The notes under the pieces were generated by a model. The model was not told where the DNA came from, did not search any database, and was given only the letters and a program-made list of their open reading frames with translations. A program made the position numbers and the translations under genes. A stretch of DNA of 40,513 nucleotides from a virus, in IMG/VR virus record IMGVR_UViG_3300027541_000501, positions 1-40,513 of that record, one strand, 5' to 3'. Below are positions 4,434 to 40,513 of this stretch, in pieces; the stretch's first letter is position 1; every line of letters begins with the position of its first letter.

Positions 4434-4826
4434 CTACATATCTTCTTGTTTTTGGCCAATGGCTACGTTTGGAGGGTTTTTAGAAGGCATAATATAACAA
4501 TGTGGTCCTTCTGCATATATAAAGTCAGCAAAAATAACATTTAGTTTTTTAAAAAACTGGTCTATACCCAAGCCCTCAAAATTTTCTGATTTTAATTTTT
4601 GGCAAAAAAAGTTATTAAAATCTATTGCTTCTTGCATAGATTCGTGCTTTTTATAAAATTTAATTCCGATGTCTCTTATATTTCCTTGATCATCTGTATG
4701 AAAAACAGCAGTCTCGTATCTACCAGCTGCATTAAGTATAGTATTTACCCTTATAGAGGTAATTGAAAGATTTACAACTTTTCTTATTTGCCACCTTTTT
4801 GTTTCAACTTTTATGTCGTGTGCCAT
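4434..4826 (-). CDS. Hypothetical protein between fibre and oxygenase genes
   Basis: A 130-aa protein I do not recognise. It is mixed alpha/beta with a helical segment (HESMQEAIDFNNFF) and no membrane segment or obvious catalytic motif. Its ATG overlaps the TAA of the upstream oxygenase (TAATG), so the two are probably translated together. The position between an oxygenase and a fibre gene suggests a virion-assembly or modification role, but nothing in the sequence proves it. Confidence 0.75.
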   Translation of the reverse strand: MAHDIKVETKRWQIRKVVNLSITSIRVNTILNAAGRYETAVFHTDDQGNIRDIGIKFYKKHESMQEAIDFNNFFCQKLKSENFEGLGIDQFFKKLNVIFADFIYAEGPHCYIMPSKNPPNVAIGQKQEDM

Positions 4827-5461
4827 TACCAGTTGCCATACTCTCTATTAAAATCTACTTCAAATTTATGTTCTTCTGAAAAGGTATAAAAAGTGTTTAA
4901 AGTATATCTCGTTCCATTTCTTACCTCTTTGACCCCATGAGCATGATGAATATCTCCTGGAAAAAATGCTAGCATGCCAGCTACAATTTTAATTTCAAGA
5001 TCATGTTGTGGAAAATAAATATGTCCATCTTCAAAGTCATCGTTCAAATACAGAACACAACCAATATCTCTCCAGTTCCAAATATGCGGAAGTCTATTAA
5101 AATTTTCATAGTCTGAATGTGGTGGCTGTGCTTGTCCATGTGGCCAACGTATTAAGTTAAAGCAGTCTGGCCAAATATCTTTTTTTAAATTCCAAGATTG
5201 TTTAATTTGTTCTCTAATTCTTGACTCTATTTCCCAAAGCTTTTTTGCAATCTTTATGTCATATTCAGTTCCAAACCCTGCCTCTGAAATTAATAAATGA
5301 ATAATTGATAAATATCTGTTGGTCCACTGATTATCAGGATCAGAATGATTTCTTTTTTCCCATAAATTTTTTTCAGTTAATCTTTTTTCATAATCTAAAA
5401 GCATAGATCTTTCTTCTTCAGTAATGAAGTCGTATATTACTTTAATGTCTTCTTTTGCCAT
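4826..5461 (-). CDS. 2OG-Fe(II) oxygenase, prolyl 4-hydroxylase-like
   Basis: A 211-aa protein with the complete metal- and cosubstrate-binding set of the prolyl 4-hydroxylase family: His115 and Asp117 (PPHSDYEN), His175 (HHAHGV) and Arg185 (GTRYTLN), in a double-stranded beta-helix of normal length. Family members use O2 and 2-oxoglutarate to hydroxylate amino-acid side chains or small molecules. It is first of a TAATG-coupled pair and starts directly after the TAG of the upstream degenerate homologue. The substrate is unknown; collagen-like fibres made in the same operon are an attractive candidate. Confidence 0.88.
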   Translation of the reverse strand: MAKEDIKVIYDFITEEERSMLLDYEKRLTEKNLWEKRNHSDPDNQWTNRYLSIIHLLISEAGFGTEYDIKIAKKLWEIESRIREQIKQSWNLKKDIWPDCFNLIRWPHGQAQPPHSDYENFNRLPHIWNWRDIGCVLYLNDDFEDGHIYFPQHDLEIKIVAGMLAFFPGDIHHAHGVKEVRNGTRYTLNTFYTFSEEHKFEVDFNREYGNW

Positions 5462-12780: not shown

Positions 12781-12808
12781 GTCCCTATGCTCATTTTAGC
12801 ATAGGGAC
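12781..12808 (-). terminator. Rho-independent terminator after the holin-like gene
   Basis: A 10-bp perfect stem (GTCCCTATGC / GCATAGGGAC) with an 8-nt loop, followed on the minus strand by TTTTCTATTT. It separates the 77-aa holin-like gene from the fibre operon. Confidence 0.8.
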
Positions 12809-13097: not shown

Positions 13098-15029
13098 TCA
13101 AGCGGATATATCTACAATTTCACAATTTCCGTCTGATGTACAGGCTAAAGTTTGTGTTCCTGAAGTACCATCTTCGGTTTCATAGAATGACAAATCTTCC
13201 CACCTAATAGAAGACGGCATCTTTGCTAACAATTCAAGATACTGTTCTTCTGTTACTTCTTGATAAGGTGCTTGCTTATATGAATGATCTGAATGTGGTA
13301 GGAATGAAATACCTGATACTTCATCAAAATGCTTGTATACCCAAGCACCAACTTCCATCCACTCATCTTCTTTTACAGACACTGTAATAGATGGTTTATG
13401 CTCACACCATGCACGTTGATAAACAAGCCATGTATTCAAATGATCAATAGCGGTCAAATGATCTCTTGTAATTGCACCTTCTGGTGCCTTTACTGGAAAT
13501 GAAAACACATAAGTGTCATTTGGTTTCATAAAGTCATCTTCTACTGGAATTCCAACTTCTTTTAAGAATGTTGATAAAGGATCTTTCTTATCTCCACGAA
13601 CAGTGCGAATGTAATATGGAGAATGCCATGCATGCATTCCTGAAGAAACTCCTACAAGCTGTGACACCGTTCCAGAAGGCTTAACACATGTAATAGCAGC
13701 AGATTCGTTAATACCAATTTTTGCTGCTTCTGCTTTATTTGTATCTCTTGCATAATCACGAAGGCCTTCTAAAACTTCTGATAGTTTTTTGAGATCTTCT
13801 TTTCCAGAAAAGAATTTATTACCAAACTGACCAGTAAGAGATACACCAAGTAGGCGTTCTTCTTCTGTATTATCTTTCCATATTTTGCGAAGATACTTAA
13901 AGTCTGTAAGTGTTGATTGCCAAGTTCCAAGAATTGTAGCTAATCTAACTTTTTCTGCTACTGTTTTAGCAGTATCTTTTTCACGAATTACAACTTCGGA
14001 TAAATTACAAAACTGATAAGGTCTAAGGATAATTTCTGAGCATGGGTTAGTTCCGTAGTGAATTTCAGGATCTCTTCTTCCCCATCTTGCTGCTTGCTTT
14101 TGAGCAGCGGCAACATTGTATATGCCACGCTCACCAGATTTTGAGTCATATAAGTTTTTCCATTCAGCAATAAACTGCTCCATCTCTGGTTTGCGAGAAT
14201 ATGCTACTGAGTTATTTGACAAAGCTCGTTGTGAATTGTTTTCCCACCAGTTACCTGATTTTGCTGCTGCCATTTCAATGTCATTAATGTTTGACAAAGA
14301 AATCATTGCAGAACGACGTACTCCGCCAACAACTACAACTTCACCTATCTTACACATTATATCGTGTGCCTCAATAGGCTTCAACTGGCGACCTGCTGCT
14401 TGCTTGAACTTAGCAATAGTAAAATCAAAAAGATTAATAAGTGGTTGTGGGCCTGAAGAACGACCACCCATTGTCTTTAAACGTGCACCTGCTGGACGAA
14501 GTTTAGAAACGTCTACAGAAGGAATCTGTCCAGCCCAAAGCATTGCAAGAAGTTCACGATAAGACTTTGCCCAACCAGTCTTAGAATCTTCTACTACAAT
14601 TGTAGTTGTAGATTTTTCAAATGATTCTGGGACGGCAGGAAGCTTATTAACATATTTATATTCAACAGAGAATCCAACACCAGTTCCACACATCAAGATA
14701 TACATTGTTTCATCAAATGATCTTGGGGAATCAACTGGAACAAATGAACAGTTATATCCTGCAACATGGTCTCTATCTAATGCTGCACCTGCAGTCATAA
14801 CAGCTCTCATAGAAGGCATTACGTTTCTATCATAAACCGCTTGCTTTAATTCCTCAACAAGTTTGAGGTCTGGGTAGTAATTAAAGTTTTTAAGGTGGGA
14901 AAGCATAAAGTCAAAGTACCTATCTACAGTTTCACCCCATGTTTCACGACGGTTTTCATCAGACAGCCATCTTGCATATCTTGACAATGCAATAAAGTTT
15001 TCATATGGGTTTTCAATAGTTCTTGACAT
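13098..15029 (-). CDS. nrdJ: Adenosylcobalamin-dependent ribonucleoside-triphosphate reductase (class II)
   Basis: A 643-aa enzyme that reduces ribonucleotides to deoxyribonucleotides using a radical generated from adenosylcobalamin. Visible active-site elements: Cys94 (GYNCSF) and Cys341 (FCNLSEVV) as the reductant pair, Cys330 and Glu332 in the NPCSE loop (radical Cys and catalytic Glu), and a C-terminal redox pair Cys630/Cys636 (CTSDGNC). Length fits monomeric class II enzymes. It has its own promoter at 15088-15116 and appears monocistronic. A cobalamin adenosyltransferase that could make its cofactor is encoded at 33953-34492. Confidence 0.95.
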   Translation of the reverse strand: MSRTIENPYENFIALSRYARWLSDENRRETWGETVDRYFDFMLSHLKNFNYYPDLKLVEELKQAVYDRNVMPSMRAVMTAGAALDRDHVAGYNCSFVPVDSPRSFDETMYILMCGTGVGFSVEYKYVNKLPAVPESFEKSTTTIVVEDSKTGWAKSYRELLAMLWAGQIPSVDVSKLRPAGARLKTMGGRSSGPQPLINLFDFTIAKFKQAAGRQLKPIEAHDIMCKIGEVVVVGGVRRSAMISLSNINDIEMAAAKSGNWWENNSQRALSNNSVAYSRKPEMEQFIAEWKNLYDSKSGERGIYNVAAAQKQAARWGRRDPEIHYGTNPCSEIILRPYQFCNLSEVVIREKDTAKTVAEKVRLATILGTWQSTLTDFKYLRKIWKDNTEEERLLGVSLTGQFGNKFFSGKEDLKKLSEVLEGLRDYARDTNKAEAAKIGINESAAITCVKPSGTVSQLVGVSSGMHAWHSPYYIRTVRGDKKDPLSTFLKEVGIPVEDDFMKPNDTYVFSFPVKAPEGAITRDHLTAIDHLNTWLVYQRAWCEHKPSITVSVKEDEWMEVGAWVYKHFDEVSGISFLPHSDHSYKQAPYQEVTEEQYLELLAKMPSSIRWEDLSFYETEDGTSGTQTLACTSDGNCEIVDISA

Positions 15030-18893: not shown

Positions 18894-19643
18894 CTAGTCG
18901 ACTAGATTATTTTTAATTTCGTTTAAGACTATTGAATTCATTTTAGATTGCTTAAACTTTTCATATCTTTTAGTAAGTGGTAAATGTTTTCCATAATATG
19001 CAGGAGCTTGTGCACAAGCATCAGCATATTTAACTAAGTTTTTATTACATCTAAATCTTTTAAGTATTACTTCTCTATCTGTTAAAACTTCAAAATAAAA
19101 TAAAGGTTCATTTTCTTCAATAATAATTTTACCTTTAGTTTTCCAGGTCTGTATTTCTATATTCATAGGTCTAAACCATTGAGAAATATCAAAGCTACCT
19201 GGAATTAAGGTCCCATATTTTGTATATCCAGGTTCATGCATCATTGGTGGACTAAATACTCCAATTGTAGGTTCTTCTGCAAAGAAAAGAAATCCCTGAT
19301 TAAATGATATTGATCCGCCCTCCGTAAATGCTGAAGGTCTTTCAATTTTAAATCCTACAGAAGTCTTTCCAGTAATTTCTAATTTTGGATCATATGGATT
19401 TGTAAAATCAAAGTCTACTTCTGACCCCATTCCAGTTCTAAAAACATATGTATGTTTAAATCTTCCTGTAGCTGCAGGACATTGTAAAAATCCACGATTA
19501 TTTCTTTCATCCCGATTTCTTTTTTCCATAAGCTCATGCATAAGTAAATTAGGTTCAGGATACATCATGTTCCATTCCCCGTAAAAATCTGATTCTGGGG
19601 AAGTTAATGGAGCCCAATATACAATAAGCGGATCTTTTTTCAT
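18894..19643 (-). CDS. Phage protein, probable relative of the protein at 36549-37259
   Basis: A 249-aa protein. ATG 19643 is chosen because a promoter (19651-19679) places the transcription start at or next to this codon, making a leaderless message; the frame extends upstream but would lie in the promoter. It is soluble, beta-rich and Pro/Phe-rich (FLQCPAATGRF, FNQGFLFFAEEPTIGVFSPP, IEENEPLFYFEVLTDREVIL). The last pattern is echoed by PKGTPLFQVIPIKRERW in the protein at 36549-37259, so both may belong to one family (possibly DUF6065). Function unknown. Confidence 0.75.
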   Translation of the reverse strand: MKKDPLIVYWAPLTSPESDFYGEWNMMYPEPNLLMHELMEKRNRDERNNRGFLQCPAATGRFKHTYVFRTGMGSEVDFDFTNPYDPKLEITGKTSVGFKIERPSAFTEGGSISFNQGFLFFAEEPTIGVFSPPMMHEPGYTKYGTLIPGSFDISQWFRPMNIEIQTWKTKGKIIIEENEPLFYFEVLTDREVILKRFRCNKNLVKYADACAQAPAYYGKHLPLTKRYEKFKQSKMNSIVLNEIKNNLVD

Positions 19644-19650
19644 ATAGGAC

Positions 19651-19679
19651 ATAATAGCATTTTCAGTTGAGCAGGTCAA
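19651..19679 (-). promoter_or_regulatory. Promoter for a leaderless gene
   Basis: On the minus strand TTGACC and TATTAT are 17 nt apart. The predicted start falls on the ATG at 19643 or one base before it. Leaderless messages are common in Actinobacteria. Confidence 0.65.
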
Positions 19680-19763
19680 TTCGTTTTTTGAAAATGTTAA
19701 TATAATTTTAATTTGTATGATACGAGTTTTTATACAAATCGGACAAAACGGATAGTGCGCCCA

Positions 19764-19839
19764 TGTGATGCAATTCACAAAAATAGTTTTGCGACACGCC
19801 CGAAAAACACCCCAAAATGTCAGACCCCTATGGTAGGAT
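19764..19839 (+). promoter_or_regulatory. Compound early promoter 1 (CRP-like site + TGTC box)
   Basis: TGTGATGCAATTCACA (19764-19779) is a perfect TGTGA-N6-TCACA palindrome. TGTCAG (19818-19823) lies exactly 10 nt before TAGGAT (19834-19839). It drives the 39-aa gene at 19875. Confidence 0.65.
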
Positions 19840-24596: not shown

Positions 24597-24627
24597 TGTC
24601 GGTGGGTAGGTGTATAATCTACCCACC
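24597..24627 (+). promoter_or_regulatory. Early promoter 11, -10 box inside a 9-bp palindrome
   Basis: TGTCGG (24597-24602), 10 nt, TATAAT (24613-24618). GGTGGGTAG (24601-24609) and CTACCCACC (24619-24627) are perfect inverted repeats flanking the -10. Confidence 0.72.
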
Positions 24628-32915: not shown

Positions 32916-33389
32916 TTATTCCCAAAGGTTCTTTTTGTTCCCGCCTATATTAGGATCCATTAGTCCAGGCGTTTTACCATTAGGGTATTTGGAATACCAG
33001 ACACCATCGGCTTCCCGCCCTTCATTTTCTACAACAAAGCCATTCTCTCTATCAAATAGAATATAGTCCATCTCTACCAAATCAAATGTCTCTTTAAATA
33101 TAGATATAACCTTATCTAATTCTAGTTGACCACAAGTATATAGATCAAATTGAATTAAAGCTGGGTCTATCTCATCCCATATGTGAAAGGCTATATGGCT
33201 AGTTTCTATCATAACGATAGCGGTTAAGCCTTTATTGCCATCCTTATCTACATAGGATGCAAATGGACCCTTAATAATCTTCATATCAATCTGGTTGACC
33301 AGATTAGTTAGAAAATCAATACCCTGTTGTTCTGTATTAATTGGATTCTTTACTTTAGCATTTACAAGTAAGTGTTTATGATATATCAT
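32916..33389 (-). CDS. speD: S-adenosylmethionine decarboxylase-like (SpeD)
   Basis: A 157-aa protein with the prokaryotic AdoMet decarboxylase core: ETSHIAFHIWDE (Ser64 would become the pyruvoyl group, His65 next to it) and FDLYTCG (catalytic Cys86). These pro-enzymes self-cleave and supply decarboxylated AdoMet for spermidine synthesis. The size is slightly above bacterial class 1B enzymes, with an extra C-terminal tail (about residues 125-157). speD is a known auxiliary gene in cyanophages. It overlaps the upstream gene by 4 nt. Confidence 0.82.
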   Translation of the reverse strand: MIYHKHLLVNAKVKNPINTEQQGIDFLTNLVNQIDMKIIKGPFASYVDKDGNKGLTAIVMIETSHIAFHIWDEIDPALIQFDLYTCGQLELDKVISIFKETFDLVEMDYILFDRENGFVVENEGREADGVWYSKYPNGKTPGLMDPNIGGNKKNLWE

Positions 33390-33824: not shown

Positions 33825-33960
33825 AATCTGGATCTACTGTTCCTGTCTTTTTCCAATATGGGCAACCATTTTCATCATAATCATTTAGACGTTCTAATAG
33901 TTCTTTATTAGTTTTCATCATACGCCATATGTGAAAGCGTAGCTTTAAATATCTAAGCAT
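33805..33960 (-). CDS. 51-aa hypothetical protein
   Basis: Start ATG 33960 is preferred (GGGAGAGAGACAAA upstream) over earlier in-frame codons that would lie inside the adenosyltransferase gene. Basic N-terminal helix (LRYLKLRFHIWRMMKTNKEL), then DENGCPYWKKTG. Confidence 0.68.
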   Translation of the reverse strand: MLRYLKLRFHIWRMMKTNKELLERLNDYDENGCPYWKKTGTVDPDYDPKIS

Positions 33961-34492
33961 TTTGTCTCTCTCCCGCCGCACTTTTAGGCGTCCATAATAC
34001 TTCATTATTTTTATTATTATATCTAGCCATAACAAATAGTAGGTCTGACAGCCTATTTAAATATTTTGGTATCACTGGATTAATATATGGGTTGTCTTTA
34101 CCATCTGATATTGCAGATAATAACCATACTACTCTTTCTGCTCTTCTTACAACTGCTCTGGCATTATGAATTGGACCAGTTGGCAAAATAAATGATCTAA
34201 GTGGCTCTAAGTATTCGTTCATGTCATCTATGACGCTTTCTAACCATAGAACTCTTTCTTCATCTATGTTTAGATCTGATTTAGCTAAATCTGCGCCGAT
34301 ATCAAACAAATCGTTTTGAATCATTTGAACAATATCATTGTATGGCTGAATCATGCCAATTGCTGAATTTGCTTCATCAACTACGCCAATAGCATCTATT
34401 ACAGCATCAAATTTGGCAACCCTGTTGCCATCTGCTAATGAAGTTTCACCATTGTCGCCAGTTTTAGTATAAATTTTGCTAAGTATTACCAC
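33953..34492 (-). CDS. Cob(I)alamin adenosyltransferase, PduO/MMAB type
   Basis: A 179-aa enzyme that transfers the adenosyl group of ATP to cob(I)alamin. Signatures: N-terminal YTKTGDNGETSL (ATP-binding), ARAVVRRAER (cofactor site) and YLNRLSDLLFVMAR near the C-terminus, with typical length. The product, adenosylcobalamin, is the cofactor of the NrdJ at 13098-15029. GTG start overlaps the upstream TAG. Confidence 0.93.
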   Translation of the reverse strand: MVILSKIYTKTGDNGETSLADGNRVAKFDAVIDAIGVVDEANSAIGMIQPYNDIVQMIQNDLFDIGADLAKSDLNIDEERVLWLESVIDDMNEYLEPLRSFILPTGPIHNARAVVRRAERVVWLLSAISDGKDNPYINPVIPKYLNRLSDLLFVMARYNNKNNEVLWTPKSAAGERQNA

Positions 34493-35337: not shown

Positions 35338-35940
35338 TTACGGCTGTGTCAATGATCCATCTACGCTTATTGGATAGTATTTTGACTTAATCATTTCTGG
35401 GGGCAAAGTCTTTTTTGCAATAACAGCCCAGTGATTTGAAGGAGCAAGATTAATAAATAACATCTTGCAATAATCTGATGGATCTTTAGATGGATATTCA
35501 TCTCTTCCATGCTCATCTATGTCGCCCTTTAAAAACACGGCAGATCCTTTTTTATCTTTAAATAATGTTTCTTGTTGAGTTTCTTTATCCAAAACTCTAA
35601 GTCCCCATTCTGGAACTGTTGTGTCTAAACAAACATCTATTGTATGTGTAGCAGGGAGTGTATCTACATGCATAAATAGTCTTGGATTATACTCTCCAAC
35701 TATCTGATATCTAGTTACTTGATTATATGTAATCTCTAGATCTTCTTCGCCAAATTCTTTTCTAGCAAGCTCTAATATCTTTTTCTCTGTATCTGGATCC
35801 CACTCAACTAAAGTGTCATATCTTCCAAATCTTTTTGTATATTGTAAATCATTAAATCCTGAATCTGCTTCTATGCAAACAGAATATATTTTATCAAAAA
35901 GTTCTTTGCCAAACGGATCTTCTTTGTAAAAAGTTTTCAT
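35338..35940 (-). CDS. 2OG-Fe(II) oxygenase
   Basis: A 200-aa protein with His91 and Asp93 (FMHVDTLPATH) and His144 (DEHGRDEYP), the metal ligands of the family. The usual Arg before the last strand appears as Lys159 (YCKMLFINLAP), so cosubstrate binding may differ. RBS GGGAGATAA. It is the third complete oxygenase of the window, far from the fibre block. Substrate unknown. Confidence 0.82.
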   Translation of the reverse strand: MKTFYKEDPFGKELFDKIYSVCIEADSGFNDLQYTKRFGRYDTLVEWDPDTEKKILELARKEFGEEDLEITYNQVTRYQIVGEYNPRLFMHVDTLPATHTIDVCLDTTVPEWGLRVLDKETQQETLFKDKKGSAVFLKGDIDEHGRDEYPSKDPSDYCKMLFINLAPSNHWAVIAKKTLPPEMIKSKYYPISVDGSLTQP

Positions 35941-36161: not shown

Positions 36162-36289
36162 TATGCCCCAAGCGTGTTTTCAGAGTCCATTCCCATGATT
36201 GCTCCAAGATAGACTGAAGATTCATTCTGAATAGACTTGTCATTTACTGTTGGTGATGCAACTGTTGAGCATCCGCACATGTCACACAT
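36161..36289 (-). CDS. 42-aa Cys-rich mini-protein
   Basis: ATG 36289 coupled by TAATG to both neighbours. It begins MCDMCGCST, a possible metal site, and then has no further Cys. Confidence 0.65.
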   Translation of the reverse strand: MCDMCGCSTVASPTVNDKSIQNESSVYLGAIMGMDSENTLGA

Positions 36290-36486
36290 TATAGTGACTC
36301 CGAATAGTCTCCAGCTTCCATTTCTCCCATGGCGCCTTCTTTTTGGAAACCTGCGTTTCCTTGAGTAGACATGTCCTTTGCTGGGAAAGCAGATGCTGGT
36401 GCTTCTGTGTAAGACTCAGTTGCCCAAGGTGAACTTGGGTTGATCTTTGGGTCTGTAAACCCTGTGGTATTGATACCGTCTGTCAT
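36289..36486 (-). CDS. 65-aa hypothetical protein
   Basis: Start ATG 36486 after AAGGAGAAAAAA. Pro/Ser/Ala/Gly-rich, probably unstructured (INPSSPWATESYTEAPASAF). First gene of a coupled run of three small genes, driven by a promoter in the gap to its right. Confidence 0.7.
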   Translation of the reverse strand: MTDGINTTGFTDPKINPSSPWATESYTEAPASAFPAKDMSTQGNAGFQKEGAMGEMEAGDYSESL

Positions 36487-36531: not shown

Positions 36532-36555
36532 CCACTACAATTATAGCATTAGTGG
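36532..36555 (-). promoter_or_regulatory. Promoter with -10 inside a palindrome
   Basis: Minus-strand TGCTATAAT (extended -10, hexamer 36540-36545). CCACTA/TAGTGG lie symmetrically around it (36532-36537, 36550-36555). No good -35. Drives the run starting at 36486. Confidence 0.55.
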
Positions 36556-37259
36556 TATTCTTTTTTGTTCCATAGGTTGTTTCTATACCAACCAGTAAGA
36601 ACTGATCCTACCTGCCAAATCCTTCTTTTATTATCTTTTCTAAGATCAGTATTTTCTACTGATTCCCAACGCTCACGTTTAATTGGAATGACTTGAAATA
36701 AAGGAGTCCCTTTTGGAACCAAGCCTTCAAAGCCATCTTTAACATAAAAAGGAATTCTTCCTGCTCCAAGAAGATCCTGGTCGCAATCGATGACTGCACT
36801 CATTGTCATAAATGGAGTATCGTATTGATTTAAAGGTTGTGTAATCAAAATGCTATAACCTGGCGGAGTTTTAATTAAATATGGATTGTGCCATGCATAA
36901 TGTTTATTTTCATATCCATTTGGGGCAGGCATTGGATGAGTTATTTCTGGACCACGAACCTGAAGTGGTTCCCAGTAATCTGTTCCTTGTTCTGCAGTTT
37001 GTCCTGGCCATCGGATTACAGATCCATGAACTCCTTGTTCAATAACTAAGTCTGTCCAAAGCTCTGCTGTGTAACCAGTCAAAAATGAATCCATAAATGG
37101 AACACATGCTCTCAATCCAGGATTCATTCCCCACTTTGTAAATTCCATTTTTTGGCCAAGAAACATTGGAGTTTTAGCATACCATTCAGGAACATAATTT
37201 TTTGCAGGCTTCATTAATGGAATATGCTCAAATGCAGAAGCAAATTGAATTTTTTGCAT
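36549..37259 (-). CDS. Phage protein of DUF6065-like type
   Basis: A 236-aa soluble protein. Motifs: VPEWYAKTP, GLRACVPFMDSFLTGYTAEL, KHYAWHNPYLIKTPPGYSIL, IPFYVKDGFEGLVPKGTPLF and a basic end with IWQVGSVLTGWYRNNLW. It resembles the protein at 18894-19643 in the 'G-P-L-F/Y' strand and overall order. It lies in one operon with the tryptophan halogenase. The family name is tentative; the function is unknown. Confidence 0.75.
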   Translation of the reverse strand: MQKIQFASAFEHIPLMKPAKNYVPEWYAKTPMFLGQKMEFTKWGMNPGLRACVPFMDSFLTGYTAELWTDLVIEQGVHGSVIRWPGQTAEQGTDYWEPLQVRGPEITHPMPAPNGYENKHYAWHNPYLIKTPPGYSILITQPLNQYDTPFMTMSAVIDCDQDLLGAGRIPFYVKDGFEGLVPKGTPLFQVIPIKRERWESVENTDLRKDNKRRIWQVGSVLTGWYRNNLWNKKEYH

Positions 37260-37459
37260 TAATTATTCTTTCCGAATTTTGCCCAAAGTCTTTCATGGAT
37301 ATAATACCCAAGAGACTCCCAAGCAATATAAATAAGAGCACCTAGGCTGGCATATTCCCATTCTCCAGTGAACAAGTATATAACTCCAGCAACTCCAACT
37401 AAATGGAATGTTTCCCAACTAAAAGTTTTTAACAAACTTCTTTTATTAGAATCAGACAT
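37259..37459 (-). CDS. DUF2061-like small membrane protein
   Basis: A 66-aa protein from ATG 37459 with GGAGG 7 nt upstream; a longer frame would overlap the neighbour. Two helices: KTFSWETFHLVGVAGVIYLF and ASLGALIYIAWESLGYYIHE, then a WAKFG end. The SWE...H.....WES.GYY.HE.LW pattern is that of DUF2061 (predicted membrane protein). Confidence 0.78.
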   Translation of the reverse strand: MSDSNKRSLLKTFSWETFHLVGVAGVIYLFTGEWEYASLGALIYIAWESLGYYIHERLWAKFGKNN

Positions 37460-37625
37460 TGCTTGCCTCCTCAGACAATCTTTTTCTGTGTTCAATACAT
37501 ACGTCAATAATTGGTCCTTCTTTACCAGACCATAAAACTTCTGCTTTCCCCCAACAACCTTTAATACGACAGGTATCAATAGGATGCTGTTGCATTTCTT
37601 CTTGACTCTTTAGTTCAAAATTCAT
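37452..37625 (-). CDS. 57-aa zinc-binding-like protein
   Basis: ATG 37625 with GGGAGG 6 nt upstream. Motif CRIKGC ... VCIEHRKRL, a CxxxxC...CxxH site, near residues 18-50. It overlaps both neighbours. Confidence 0.7.
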   Translation of the reverse strand: MNFELKSQEEMQQHPIDTCRIKGCWGKAEVLWSGKEGPIIDVCIEHRKRLSEEASNV

Positions 37626-37803
37626 CTTCTGCCTCCCTATCAATTGGTGTTGGTGCGGTTAGTAGAGAACCACATTCCGCACACTCACAGTCTAGCATAT
37701 ACATTGCTATTTCATAAGTTTCTGGATCAAATCTTGCTTTTATTTTTAACATGGCAGAGTTACAGTTTGGACATGCTGTAGTTGGTATGCCACGTAAATC
37801 CAT
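37615..37803 (-). CDS. Zinc-ribbon protein
   Basis: A 62-aa protein with CPNC and CECAEC, typical zinc-ribbon knuckles, and an acidic tail. 1 nt after the stop of the membrane protein gene. Function unknown. Confidence 0.75.
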   Translation of the reverse strand: MDLRGIPTTACPNCNSAMLKIKARFDPETYEIAMYMLDCECAECGSLLTAPTPIDREAEDEF

Positions 37804-37804
37804 T

Positions 37805-38101
37805 TTAACTCAATATCAAACCAAAATGCTTAGCAATTGACAATATTGCTAAAATCGACCATAAAATGTTAAACCAAATAATTGTTGGCAAAGTTTTTAC
37901 AGTAGAAGACCAGATTAGTGCTAAGCTTGAAATTAATGCAAAAATGTACAGCCACCAAAATTGTCTTCCAAGCAAAAGTCCTGGGAAAATGATAGCAATC
38001 TTTGTCATAAAGGCAAAAAACTCTACAGTATTTGGCCTATTCCAATAACTTTTAAATCGCATTGTTTTTAGTGCTTCAATCCATTGCGTTCTAAACTTCA
38101 T
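37805..38101 (-). CDS. Multi-pass membrane protein
   Basis: A 98-aa protein with three hydrophobic helices (about residues 28-47, 48-66 and 72-92; LIWSSTVKTLPTIIWFNILW among them). A basic amphipathic start (TQWIEALKTMRFKSYW) precedes them. It overlaps the halogenase stop by one base, so co-translation is likely. Not recognised. Confidence 0.75.
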   Translation of the reverse strand: MKFRTQWIEALKTMRFKSYWNRPNTVEFFAFMTKIAIIFPGLLLGRQFWWLYIFALISSLALIWSSTVKTLPTIIWFNILWSILAILSIAKHFGLILS

Positions 38102-39675
38102 TAGTTATCTCCTTGATGATAATGTTTCTTTAAATACTCATAATGCGTTGGTGCATCTTTAATAAAATCGTTCCATTTCTTTTGAGATTTCTCAGTTTTA
38201 ATAAAGAAATTTCCAGCAACCTGTTCATAATTTGTAGGATGCAAGTGTTGCCAATATGGAATAGATGCTGCATGTATTGGATACCACTCATGTCCTATTG
38301 CAATTGCATGGAATCCACTATCAATAGCAACTCTGTATGACTGATGCTGTGTTTTATTTACTAACTCTTCAATAAAGTTTGATTCAGTAGATGCCTCCCA
38401 AAGCTTTGGGGCAACATCTCTGGTTGTCATATACTTCCAAAATTCTGTGTCTCTTCTTGAACTTAATGTATAGTGATACTCCAAGAATGTGGCAAATGAT
38501 TCAAAATGCTTTCTTGTAATTCCATTATAGAAATCTCGATCTATAGCATTAAAATATCCACGAGCTAAGAATCTTGCCAACATCATTGCTGACTCATGAA
38601 TAAAGAATAAACCATTAGATTCTAGTGGCTCTAGAAATGCTGCAGATAAACCAATACCAACAACATTTTTTACCCATGTTCTTTCATAACATCCAGACTT
38701 AAAGAATATTTCTCTAAATGCTGAATCTTCTGGAACACGGTGAGCACCAATTCTATCTGCAAGATACTGCTTAAACTCTACAAGTGCTTCTTCTTTTGTT
38801 GTCCATCTATCTGAATATACATAACCAGTACCAATTCTTGAATACAATGGGGCATTCCAAACCCATCCATGCCCTAACGCTGTACAGTCTGTATACAAAT
38901 CAACTTCTTCATCTGGATTTTCATATTGAATTTGAACAGCCCATGCTTTATTTACTGGCAGTCTATCTTTTAGACTATAAAAAGGTTCATTCATTGATCC
39001 GCCCAAAAGCAGGCTCTTAAATCCAGTACAGTCAACAAAGATATCAGCATAAATTTCTCTGCCGTCTTCCAGTATAAGCTTTTCTACCCCATCATCATTT
39101 GTTACAATTTGAGATACATCTGCTTCAATATGCTTTACGCCTCTTGGCTTTGCAAAGTGTTCTGACAGCCATTCGGCAAATTTGATTGCATCAAAATGCA
39201 AAGCAAAATCTCTATCCATTGAGAATCTACCCAATTCTCCATTTTTAGGATTTTTTAATTTTCTAGAATTGAGTAAAACTGATTGTGGAAATAAAGATTC
39301 AACGTAACTTTGAGTAGTGGTTGTTTCTGGAAGATAATGTTTCATAACGTGCCAGTCATTTGCTCCTGGCAATTCACAGTTTTCTAATGTTGGGTGTCCA
39401 AATGGATAATGAAATCCTCCGTCACCAATTCTGTGGAAATTATTAAATTTAATACTTAGTTTGTATGATGCATCTGTAAAATGCATAAATTCTTTATGAT
39501 CAACTCCAATAGCATTTAGCCATGCTGGTAAACCAGCAAGTGTGCTTTCTCCTACTCCAATACTAGGAACATAGGGACTTTCAACAAGTGTTATATCTAC
39601 GTCTTTTAACTGTGAAACAAGGGTACTTGCGGTCATCCAACCAGCAGAACCGCCACCTACAATTACAATTTTCAA
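38101..39675 (-). CDS. Flavin-dependent tryptophan-halogenase family protein
   Basis: A 524-aa protein. N-terminal FAD motif VGGGSAGWMTA (GxGxxG, residues 7-13), GVGEST, the catalytic Lys76 region (YKLSIKFNNF), the halogenase motif WVWNAP (WxWxIP pattern, Ala for Ile), and PLESNG with the second active-site Glu. Family members use FADH2, O2 and chloride or bromide to halogenate aromatic rings. It needs an external flavin reductase, which is not visible here. Such genes are known as auxiliary genes in some cyanophages. Substrate unknown. Confidence 0.9.
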   Translation of the reverse strand: MKIVIVGGGSAGWMTASTLVSQLKDVDITLVESPYVPSIGVGESTLAGLPAWLNAIGVDHKEFMHFTDASYKLSIKFNNFHRIGDGGFHYPFGHPTLENCELPGANDWHVMKHYLPETTTTQSYVESLFPQSVLLNSRKLKNPKNGELGRFSMDRDFALHFDAIKFAEWLSEHFAKPRGVKHIEADVSQIVTNDDGVEKLILEDGREIYADIFVDCTGFKSLLLGGSMNEPFYSLKDRLPVNKAWAVQIQYENPDEEVDLYTDCTALGHGWVWNAPLYSRIGTGYVYSDRWTTKEEALVEFKQYLADRIGAHRVPEDSAFREIFFKSGCYERTWVKNVVGIGLSAAFLEPLESNGLFFIHESAMMLARFLARGYFNAIDRDFYNGITRKHFESFATFLEYHYTLSSRRDTEFWKYMTTRDVAPKLWEASTESNFIEELVNKTQHQSYRVAIDSGFHAIAIGHEWYPIHAASIPYWQHLHPTNYEQVAGNFFIKTEKSQKKWNDFIKDAPTHYEYLKKHYHQGDN

Positions 39676-39695: not shown

Positions 39696-39744
39696 GATTG
39701 GGGATATCATATATATTATACAATATCCCCAATCGGTTTGTAAA
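39696..39744 (-). promoter_or_regulatory. Halogenase promoter with -10 inside a 12-bp palindrome
   Basis: Minus strand TTTACA (39739-39744), 18 nt, TATAAT (39715-39720). GATTGGGGATAT (39696-39707) and ATATCCCCAATC (39723-39734) are perfect inverted repeats around the -10. The same hairpin could also terminate the gene on the right. Predicted start near 39708. Confidence 0.62.
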
Positions 39745-39754
39745 TAGATATTAT

Positions 39755-40513
39755 TTACTTCTTAAGAGTTACCTTAAGCTTAGGGAACTTAGCGTTCCAC
39801 TTCTTTGCTAGAGCATTAAACTCTGCAATATATGTAGCCTTTGCAAGATCAGCATCTGCCTTAGCCTTTGCTAGATCTACTACGGCCTTTGCTGCTGCTG
39901 CGTCTGCTGCAACCTTATCTGCTGCACGAGCAGCCTTTTCTGTTGCAAGGGCAGTCTCTGCTGCAGCCTTAGCAGCATTTGCTGCTGCAAGTTGTGCTGT
40001 AAGGTCTGCTACCTGTGCTGAAAGATCAGTTACGGCAATTACCTTTACTGCTGAAGATGATGGTGTGCTGAATCCAGTTACTGCTGTTGCCATATCTGCA
40101 GATGCAGCATATGCAACAATTGTTACTGGGCCAGTTGCTGGAGCAACAAACTTAACGTCTGCTGTACCAAAATTTGTTAGACCAGATCCTGTAGTTACAG
40201 TATTTGTGTCTAGGGTTGCACCATTAGCAATTGCTGAAATTGACTTTCCAGAAATCTTGTTTCCGAATACGTCAACTGCGCCAATTGTTACAGTGACTGA
40301 GGTACCTGCTGCTGCTGAATTTACTCCTGCTAGAGTAAGCTTATCAATTGCACCAGCAATTCCTTGTACATAATATGTTGTTGTGGTTCCACCATTTGTA
40401 ATGGCTACTGAACCAATTGCTGTCGTTTTAGTATATACATAAAACGTTGCTGTTGTACCTGTTCCAACATTCTGTGACCAAGTAGCAGATCCTGATGATG
40501 CTGTTACTGGAGC
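39755..40513 (-). CDS. Ig-like plus coiled-coil surface or virion protein, 5' end outside window
   Basis: The frame is open without a stop from the window edge to TAA 39755 (252 codons read), so the true start is beyond 40513. The visible N-terminal part has bacterial Ig-like repeats (GTSVTVTIGAVDVFGNKISG, VKFVAPATGPVTIVAYA). These are followed by a long Ala/Lys coiled coil (about residues 160-240: LSAQVADLTAQLAAANAAKA) and a basic C-terminus (FPKLKVTLKK). The layout suggests a trimeric fibre or a surface-attached protein. An internal ATG at 40093 is not the real start. Confidence 0.78.
   Translation of the reverse strand, partial: APVTASSGSATWSQNVGTGTTATFYVYTKTTAIGSVAITNGGTTTTYYVQGIAGAIDKLTLAGVNSAAAGTSVTVTIGAVDVFGNKISGKSISAIANGATLDTNTVTTGSGLTNFGTADVKFVAPATGPVTIVAYAASADMATAVTGFSTPSSSAVKVIAVTDLSAQVADLTAQLAAANAAKAAAETALATEKAARAADKVAADAAAAKAVVDLAKAKADADLAKATYIAEFNALAKKWNAKFPKLKVTLKK

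Follow-up and report, generated by a model that had tools for sequence, protein, structure and literature searches.

A VirX1-like flavin-dependent halogenase as a probable swappable cargo gene of freshwater actinophages

Cyanophages have long been known to carry halogenase genes, and to our knowledge no natural substrate has been established for a phage enzyme. VirX1, from cyanophage Syn10, has halogenating activity, a large and open active site and the preference I > Br > Cl, and takes many small aromatic compounds and heterocycles; motif variants of WxWxIP are known among the halogenases of the family (PMC8407142). Tryptophan halogenases possess a YYHG-type substrate-binding stretch (motif table in PMC8269204). 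A freshwater case is the Actinomycetia phage DSL-LC01 from Dishui Lake, with a halogenase near collagen-like and WhiB genes (PMC10611076).

An intact and complete gene of this kind was found in the window, that is, the whole stretch of 40,513 nucleotides of viral DNA that was analysed (Table 1; loci used for comparison are referred to by L numbers). It was the only PF04820 match of the IMG/VR record, with 340.6 bits against a curated cut-off of 21 in the profile search, and the match to phrog_2928, a phage halogenase family, was full length (residues 1–514). VirX1 was the best match among solved structures, the tryptophan halogenases ranking behind it. The FAD motif G7xG9xxG12 was present, its glycines being invariant in relatives except for one shortened ORF. 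The catalytic Lys is K72, kept in 29 of 30 phage and 80 of 80 bacterial homologues, and E349 and P350 were kept in all of them; the FAD glycines, K72, W271, F347, E349 and P350 are near-invariant over this set. The tunnel motif FLEPLESNG, of the Fx.Px.Sx.G type, occupies residues 347–355. The counterpart of WxWxIP is WVWNAP (residues 271–276), where W271, W273 and the Pro are kept and Ile is replaced by Ala. Ile is found here in 79 of the 80 bacterial homologues, and the 30 phage homologues have Ile (16), Val (8), Ala (3) or Thr (3). As Ala is common to all close freshwater relatives (L006, L008, L160, L166 and L246–L248), it is a trait of the lineage and not a sporadic loss; it could loosen the barrier against monooxygenation. 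The sequence-only reading had described a complete homologue with the FAD motif, catalytic Lys, WVWNAP, PLESNG and the exchange of Ile for Ala, all of which were confirmed, and the key residues, whose loss in close relatives it had named as counter-evidence, were retained.

Table 1. Features of the halogenase region, with positions in the window.
Feature	Position	Strand	Characteristics
Upstream gene, 3' part	39755..40513	minus	Runs off contig; secreted Ig-like and coiled-coil protein; cargo slot anchor
Promoter-like TTTACA-18-TATAAT	39715..39744	minus	-35 39744–39739, -10 39720–39715; 11/12 match
12-bp perfect inverted repeat around -10	39696..39734	minus	GATTGGGGATAT / ATATCCCCAATC; terminator-like hairpin, upstream gene end
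VirX1-like flavin-dependent halogenase	38101..39675	minus	524 aa, TTG start; PF04820 2e-101; phrog_2928 5e-136; VirX1 (6qgm) 1.7e-90
Small membrane protein	37805..38101	minus	98 aa; start codon overlaps halogenase stop
Zinc-ribbon-like protein	37615..37803	minus	62 aa; CPNC...CAEC
DUF2061 small membrane protein	37262..37459	minus	PF09834 1.1e-11; probable ATG at 37459
DUF6065-like protein	36549..37259	minus	phrog_7084; predicted dUTPase-type beta fold
2OG-Fe(II) oxygenase-like protein	35338..35940	minus	200 aa; invariant H91xD93...H144xR146

The dN/dS ratio of the halogenase was 0.045 against L004, 0.10 against L008 and 0.23 against L006, with dS near saturation in the last two comparisons, indicating that the gene is under purifying selection and evolutionarily maintained. 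Since the catalytic residues are kept and synonymous change greatly exceeds non-synonymous change, what is maintained appears to be a functional enzyme; the suggestion that it could be active was thus strengthened, and it is probably active. Besides the change to Ala, it counts against a working halogenase that no gene for a flavin reductase was seen among the part of the window genes examined and that freshwater habitats contain little bromide or iodide. A recent capture of the gene from a host was rejected, as a search of the bacterial genome collection with the single protein turned up no close homologue and as the gene matches the phage in codon use (RSCU correlation 0.89).

In an IQ-TREE phylogeny with cyanophage and bacterial halogenases, a comparison advised by the same reading, the halogenase fell within a clade of 19 phage proteins and one MAG protein (L073) which includes VirX1 and has 100/100 support; VirX1 was placed via syn9 gp42, to which it is identical over 312 aa. 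Apart from the clade, the window halogenase and VirX1 (Syn10 CPUG_00131, syn9 gp42) are alike in length, catalytic residues and YPFG region, and each shares its operon with a DUF6065-like gene. The identity to syn9 gp42 is 34%, VirX1 has WxWxIP instead of WxWxAP, and VirX1 belongs to a cyanophage, whereas the window gene belongs to an actinophage and is not beside tail-fibre genes. The cyanophage members of the clade adjoin tail-fibre genes and many 2OG oxygenases, with the exception of S-B64. The nearest annotated phage records, Synechococcus phages Sf-CH11 and S-B64 (43% over the full length), differ in neighbourhood, which is a structural/2OG cassette in the former and replication genes in the latter. 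The DSL-LC01 protein (25%), with the altered motif IEPLDFSS, is on a long branch outside the VirX1 clade. PrnA, RebH, PyrH and Thal share the fold, the FAD motif, the Lys and the Glu with the window halogenase but differ in their YYHG stretch; the bacterial proteins with this stretch fall in a separate clade outside that of VirX1. The best bacterial match, L073 (43%), comes from a MAG contig where efflux, methyltransferase and AMP-binding genes flank it; being nested among phage proteins, it was read as a probable phage-to-bacterium transfer. QhpG and LodB, two flavoproteins that take part in protein maturation, showed a distant likeness to the family, far below the cut-offs.

The promoter-like element of the halogenase was kept in L004, was one base off in L008 and reached 12/12 in L246 and L248. 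The inverted repeat is followed by a T-rich stretch, and L006 has a different stem sequence in a similar promoter/hairpin layout. Hairpins occupy the corresponding position in most halogenase-free relatives, where the promoter-like layout is different. The hairpin was read as the putative terminator of the upstream gene, sharing bases with the cargo promoter. The "own palindromic promoter" formerly attributed to the halogenase was half right for this reason: the promoter-like element is there and overlaps the repeat, but the hairpin belongs to the 3' end of the upstream gene. The palindrome as operator of a halogenase-specific regulator was rejected on the same evidence. A window-wide scan gave 22 inverted repeats around -10-like boxes versus 12.9 in shuffles, an excess too weak for a general claim; hairpins enclosing such a box are at 12781–12808, 24601–24627 and 39696–39734.

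The upstream gene is complete in L003 (L003:3872–4921), where it encodes 349 aa with the signal peptide MKSFKKIALAVVAAMTMSTLVATSASA followed by Ig-like and coiled-coil parts, as read by eye. It was first assumed to encode a virion protein, an idea dropped in view of the signal peptide, the product not being evidently of the virion. This signal peptide is of the Sec type, and the protein recurs in conserved form in dozens of contigs from freshwater phages; it was not found in the annotated phage collection. Relatives of the locus were collected from viral contigs via this gene and another conserved neighbour, disregarding the halogenase, and the slot was defined as the space between the upstream gene and a set of conserved small genes, with an ORF of ≥150 aa as occupant. 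In the best 80 hits of each search, which are not phylogenetically independent, 23 of 55 distinct slots were empty, 10 held a luciferase-like monooxygenase, 7 a 2OG-Fe(II) oxygenase, 7 a radical-SAM/SPASM protein and 6 the halogenase described here; other occupants were few, and some slots held two. The luciferase-like occupant matched alkanesulfonate monooxygenase (FMNH2-dependent) and the SPASM occupant PF13186 and BtrN; no match was obtained for a 257-aa occupant (c120). Because most near phage relatives have no halogenase at this place, the gene is accessory, in accordance with its earlier description as auxiliary, and judged by these counts it is swappable cargo in a freshwater actinophage slot.

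Membrane, zinc and DUF6065-like genes, which had been announced downstream, were indeed present (Table 1). The 98-aa membrane protein was also found beside or near the halogenase in L006, L008, L009, L246 and L248; relatives of the zinc-ribbon-like protein are present in halogenase-free relatives too. A DUF6065-like gene directly adjoins the halogenase in syn9/Syn10 (after VirX1 itself), S-CREM1, Sf-FP1, P-TIM40 and L009, and is near it in the window, L006, L008, L018 and L019. Within the actinophage family it was detected at 5/5 loci with a halogenase versus 3/45 without (Fisher 2.6e-5, kinship uncorrected). At L177, one of these five, the halogenase is of a different clade, and the pairing must therefore have arisen at least twice. 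This second, distant halogenase of the same phage family (L177:12235–13044, whole gene in L324) is nearest to that of Pelagibacter phage HTVC008M and lies near DUF6065-like, 2OG-like and DUF2061 genes. The DUF6065-like gene also occurs without a halogenase in other loci and in haloviruses; an exclusive partnership was rejected, as no halogenase was present in the stored flanks (about 6 kb where the contig allows) of the other loci matched by the L009 DUF6065-like protein.

A dUTPase-type fold was predicted for the DUF6065-like protein: all top Foldseek rows of its model (pLDDT 80) were dUTPases (5.5e-4), and VIA gave Z 9.7 and rmsd 4.7 with 128 aligned. Motifs 3 and 4 of dUTPases are traceable in the sole region aligning to these enzymes, and motif 2 (RSG/RSS) and the glycine-rich motif 5 were missing in a 28-sequence alignment inspected by eye. 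The DUF6065-like S-CREM1_70 (L032:7618–8388) is annotated as "triphosphate nucleotidohydrolase", in agreement with such a fold, and a weak DUF6065-like match (E 2e-4, phrog_17480) is at 18894–19778 of the window. The model of the 2OG-Fe(II) oxygenase-like protein (pLDDT 88.7) matched 2OG oxygenases (Foldseek 3.5e-8; double-stranded beta helix), and its fold resembles protein and collagen prolyl hydroxylases. Another 2OG-Fe(II) oxygenase (4826–5461; PF13640, 1.6e-9) is located in the tail module, adjoining several family-less proteins of ~180 aa. Small downstream ORFs (77 aa, 54 aa and a CxxCGC peptide near 36170–36290) were rejected as RiPP-like halogenase precursors, being conserved in halogenase-free relatives. 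The tiny protein beginning MCDMCGCS (36165–36300) resembles a MCVECGC... family that many freshwater phages have in this position.

By its gene content the window is from an actinophage: ribonucleotide reductase and GP88 are nearest to those of Streptomyces and Mycobacterium phages, and WhiB, absent from this 40.5-kb fragment, was found in 7/7 full-size relatives (95–113 kb), while among 14 control genomes only Corynebacterium matched. The host is probably a member of the freshwater Actinobacteria, the habitat being read from contig sources and related literature. The window also encodes a class II (B12-dependent) ribonucleotide reductase (13098–15029) and a cobalamin adenosyltransferase (33953–34492; PF01923, 1e-46), which may supply the cofactor of the former, and an S-adenosylmethionine decarboxylase (32916–33389; PF02675, 2.6e-13).

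The reading that we favour, and hold to be fairly probable, is that of a working VirX1-type FADH2-dependent halogenase, optional cargo of freshwater actinophages, which would act on an aromatic substrate larger than free tryptophan. From intactness, catalytic residues, selection, clade, slot and associated genes, established by sequence, we infer activity, halide, substrate, transcription and benefit. Transcription of the gene would start from a promoter of its own, located where the secreted-protein gene ends, and a short operon with the membrane protein and the dUTPase-fold protein would follow. According to the family mechanism, FAD reduced by a host flavin reductase would yield, with O2 and halide, hypohalous acid, which would pass the FLEPLESNG-lined tunnel to K72; an electron-rich aromatic group would then undergo electrophilic halogenation directed by K72 and the motif Glu. 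This group may belong to a protein or peptide, as an aromatic residue, or to a bulky host metabolite; such substrates fit the VirX1 clade and the company of tailoring enzymes, and a host metabolite seems about as likely as a protein-bound substrate.

Free tryptophan, named among the possible targets in the sequence-only reading, is an unlikely substrate. Although the family name and the overall fold suggest an enzyme that shifts tryptophan pools, the protein belongs to the VirX1 clade and not to that of the actinobacterial tryptophan-halogenase-like proteins, several of which carry the [FHY]YHG stretch; this stretch, found in five bacterial homologues, is absent from it, and its alignment to most tryptophan halogenases stops near residue 427, so that we give this explanation very little credence. 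The WxWxAP change shared by the whole lineage, at a position where bacteria keep Ile, and the distant similarity to QhpG and LodB would suit a flavin monooxygenase or other oxidase which has lost halogenation. Such a loss is improbable: the FxEPxESxG motif is retained along with K72 and the two Trp, the position of the Ala is freely variable in phage relatives, and established halogenases also include motif variants (PMC8407142). An action of the halogenase and its partner on nucleotides or phage DNA, by base halogenation, might be supposed from the dUTPase-type fold and from the homologues in halovirus HJTV-1 and cyanophage S-RIM4, which have ribonucleotide reductase genes close by. The partner, however, is without dUTPase motifs 2 and 5, many DUF6065-like genes have no halogenase nearby, and we know of no PF04820-family halogenase that uses nucleotides, all of which makes this idea hardly credible.

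Between the two versions of the substrate, each a serious candidate that falls short of being probable, the evidence is divided. Halogenation of aromatic residues in a protein produced in the course of infection (tail fibre, adhesin, phage surface or host envelope), changing adhesion, stability or superinfection, is the protein-bound version of the favoured reading; many VirX1-clade relatives sit in tail-fibre or collagen-like modules with 2OG-Fe(II) oxygenases, the radical-SAM/SPASM and 2OG types of the slot often modify proteins or peptides, and the prolyl hydroxylase-like fold at 35338–35940 and the faint likeness to QhpG and LodB point in the same direction. Nearness to structural genes is nevertheless weak evidence, because they fill much of a phage genome; moreover, the S-B64 copy is among replication genes, the upstream secreted protein has no more than 2 Trp and 6 Tyr among its 349 residues, and no sequence pattern of a substrate emerged. 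A small host metabolite (indole, phenol or a signal molecule), halogenated for instance to poison competitors, block superinfection or detoxify, would fit the substrate range of VirX1 (PMC8407142) and the alkanesulfonate monooxygenase-like occupant, a small-molecule enzyme, but no biosynthetic genes or exporter were recognised beside the halogenase, and the DUF6065-like association and the tail modules of the relatives would be left unexplained. More speculatively, and rather doubtfully, the end of the secreted-protein gene may be one dedicated locus at which oxidative tailoring enzymes with unrelated types of cofactor replace one another (FADH2 halogenase, FMNH2 luciferase-like monooxygenase, 2OG-Fe(II) oxygenase, radical-SAM/SPASM and JmjC-like), all with one shared purpose, such as the chemical modification of a surface protein or peptide of phage or host; halogenation would be one version of it, helped by the dUTPase-fold partner. 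An actinophage slot with interchangeable redox enzymes and such a partner was not met in the part of the literature covered by our search.

The enzyme is thus of a known kind, and it is the setting, an actinophage cargo slot, that is new. A natural WxWxAP enzyme of the VirX1 type is on offer for biocatalysis. The VirX1 type is extended to freshwater actinophages, in which the gene is, from its sequence and distribution, swappable cargo under purifying selection. Its recurrent partners, the DUF6065-like protein of predicted dUTPase fold, a 2OG-Fe(II) oxygenase and a small membrane protein, together with the other occupants of the slot, limit where the halogenated target has to be sought.
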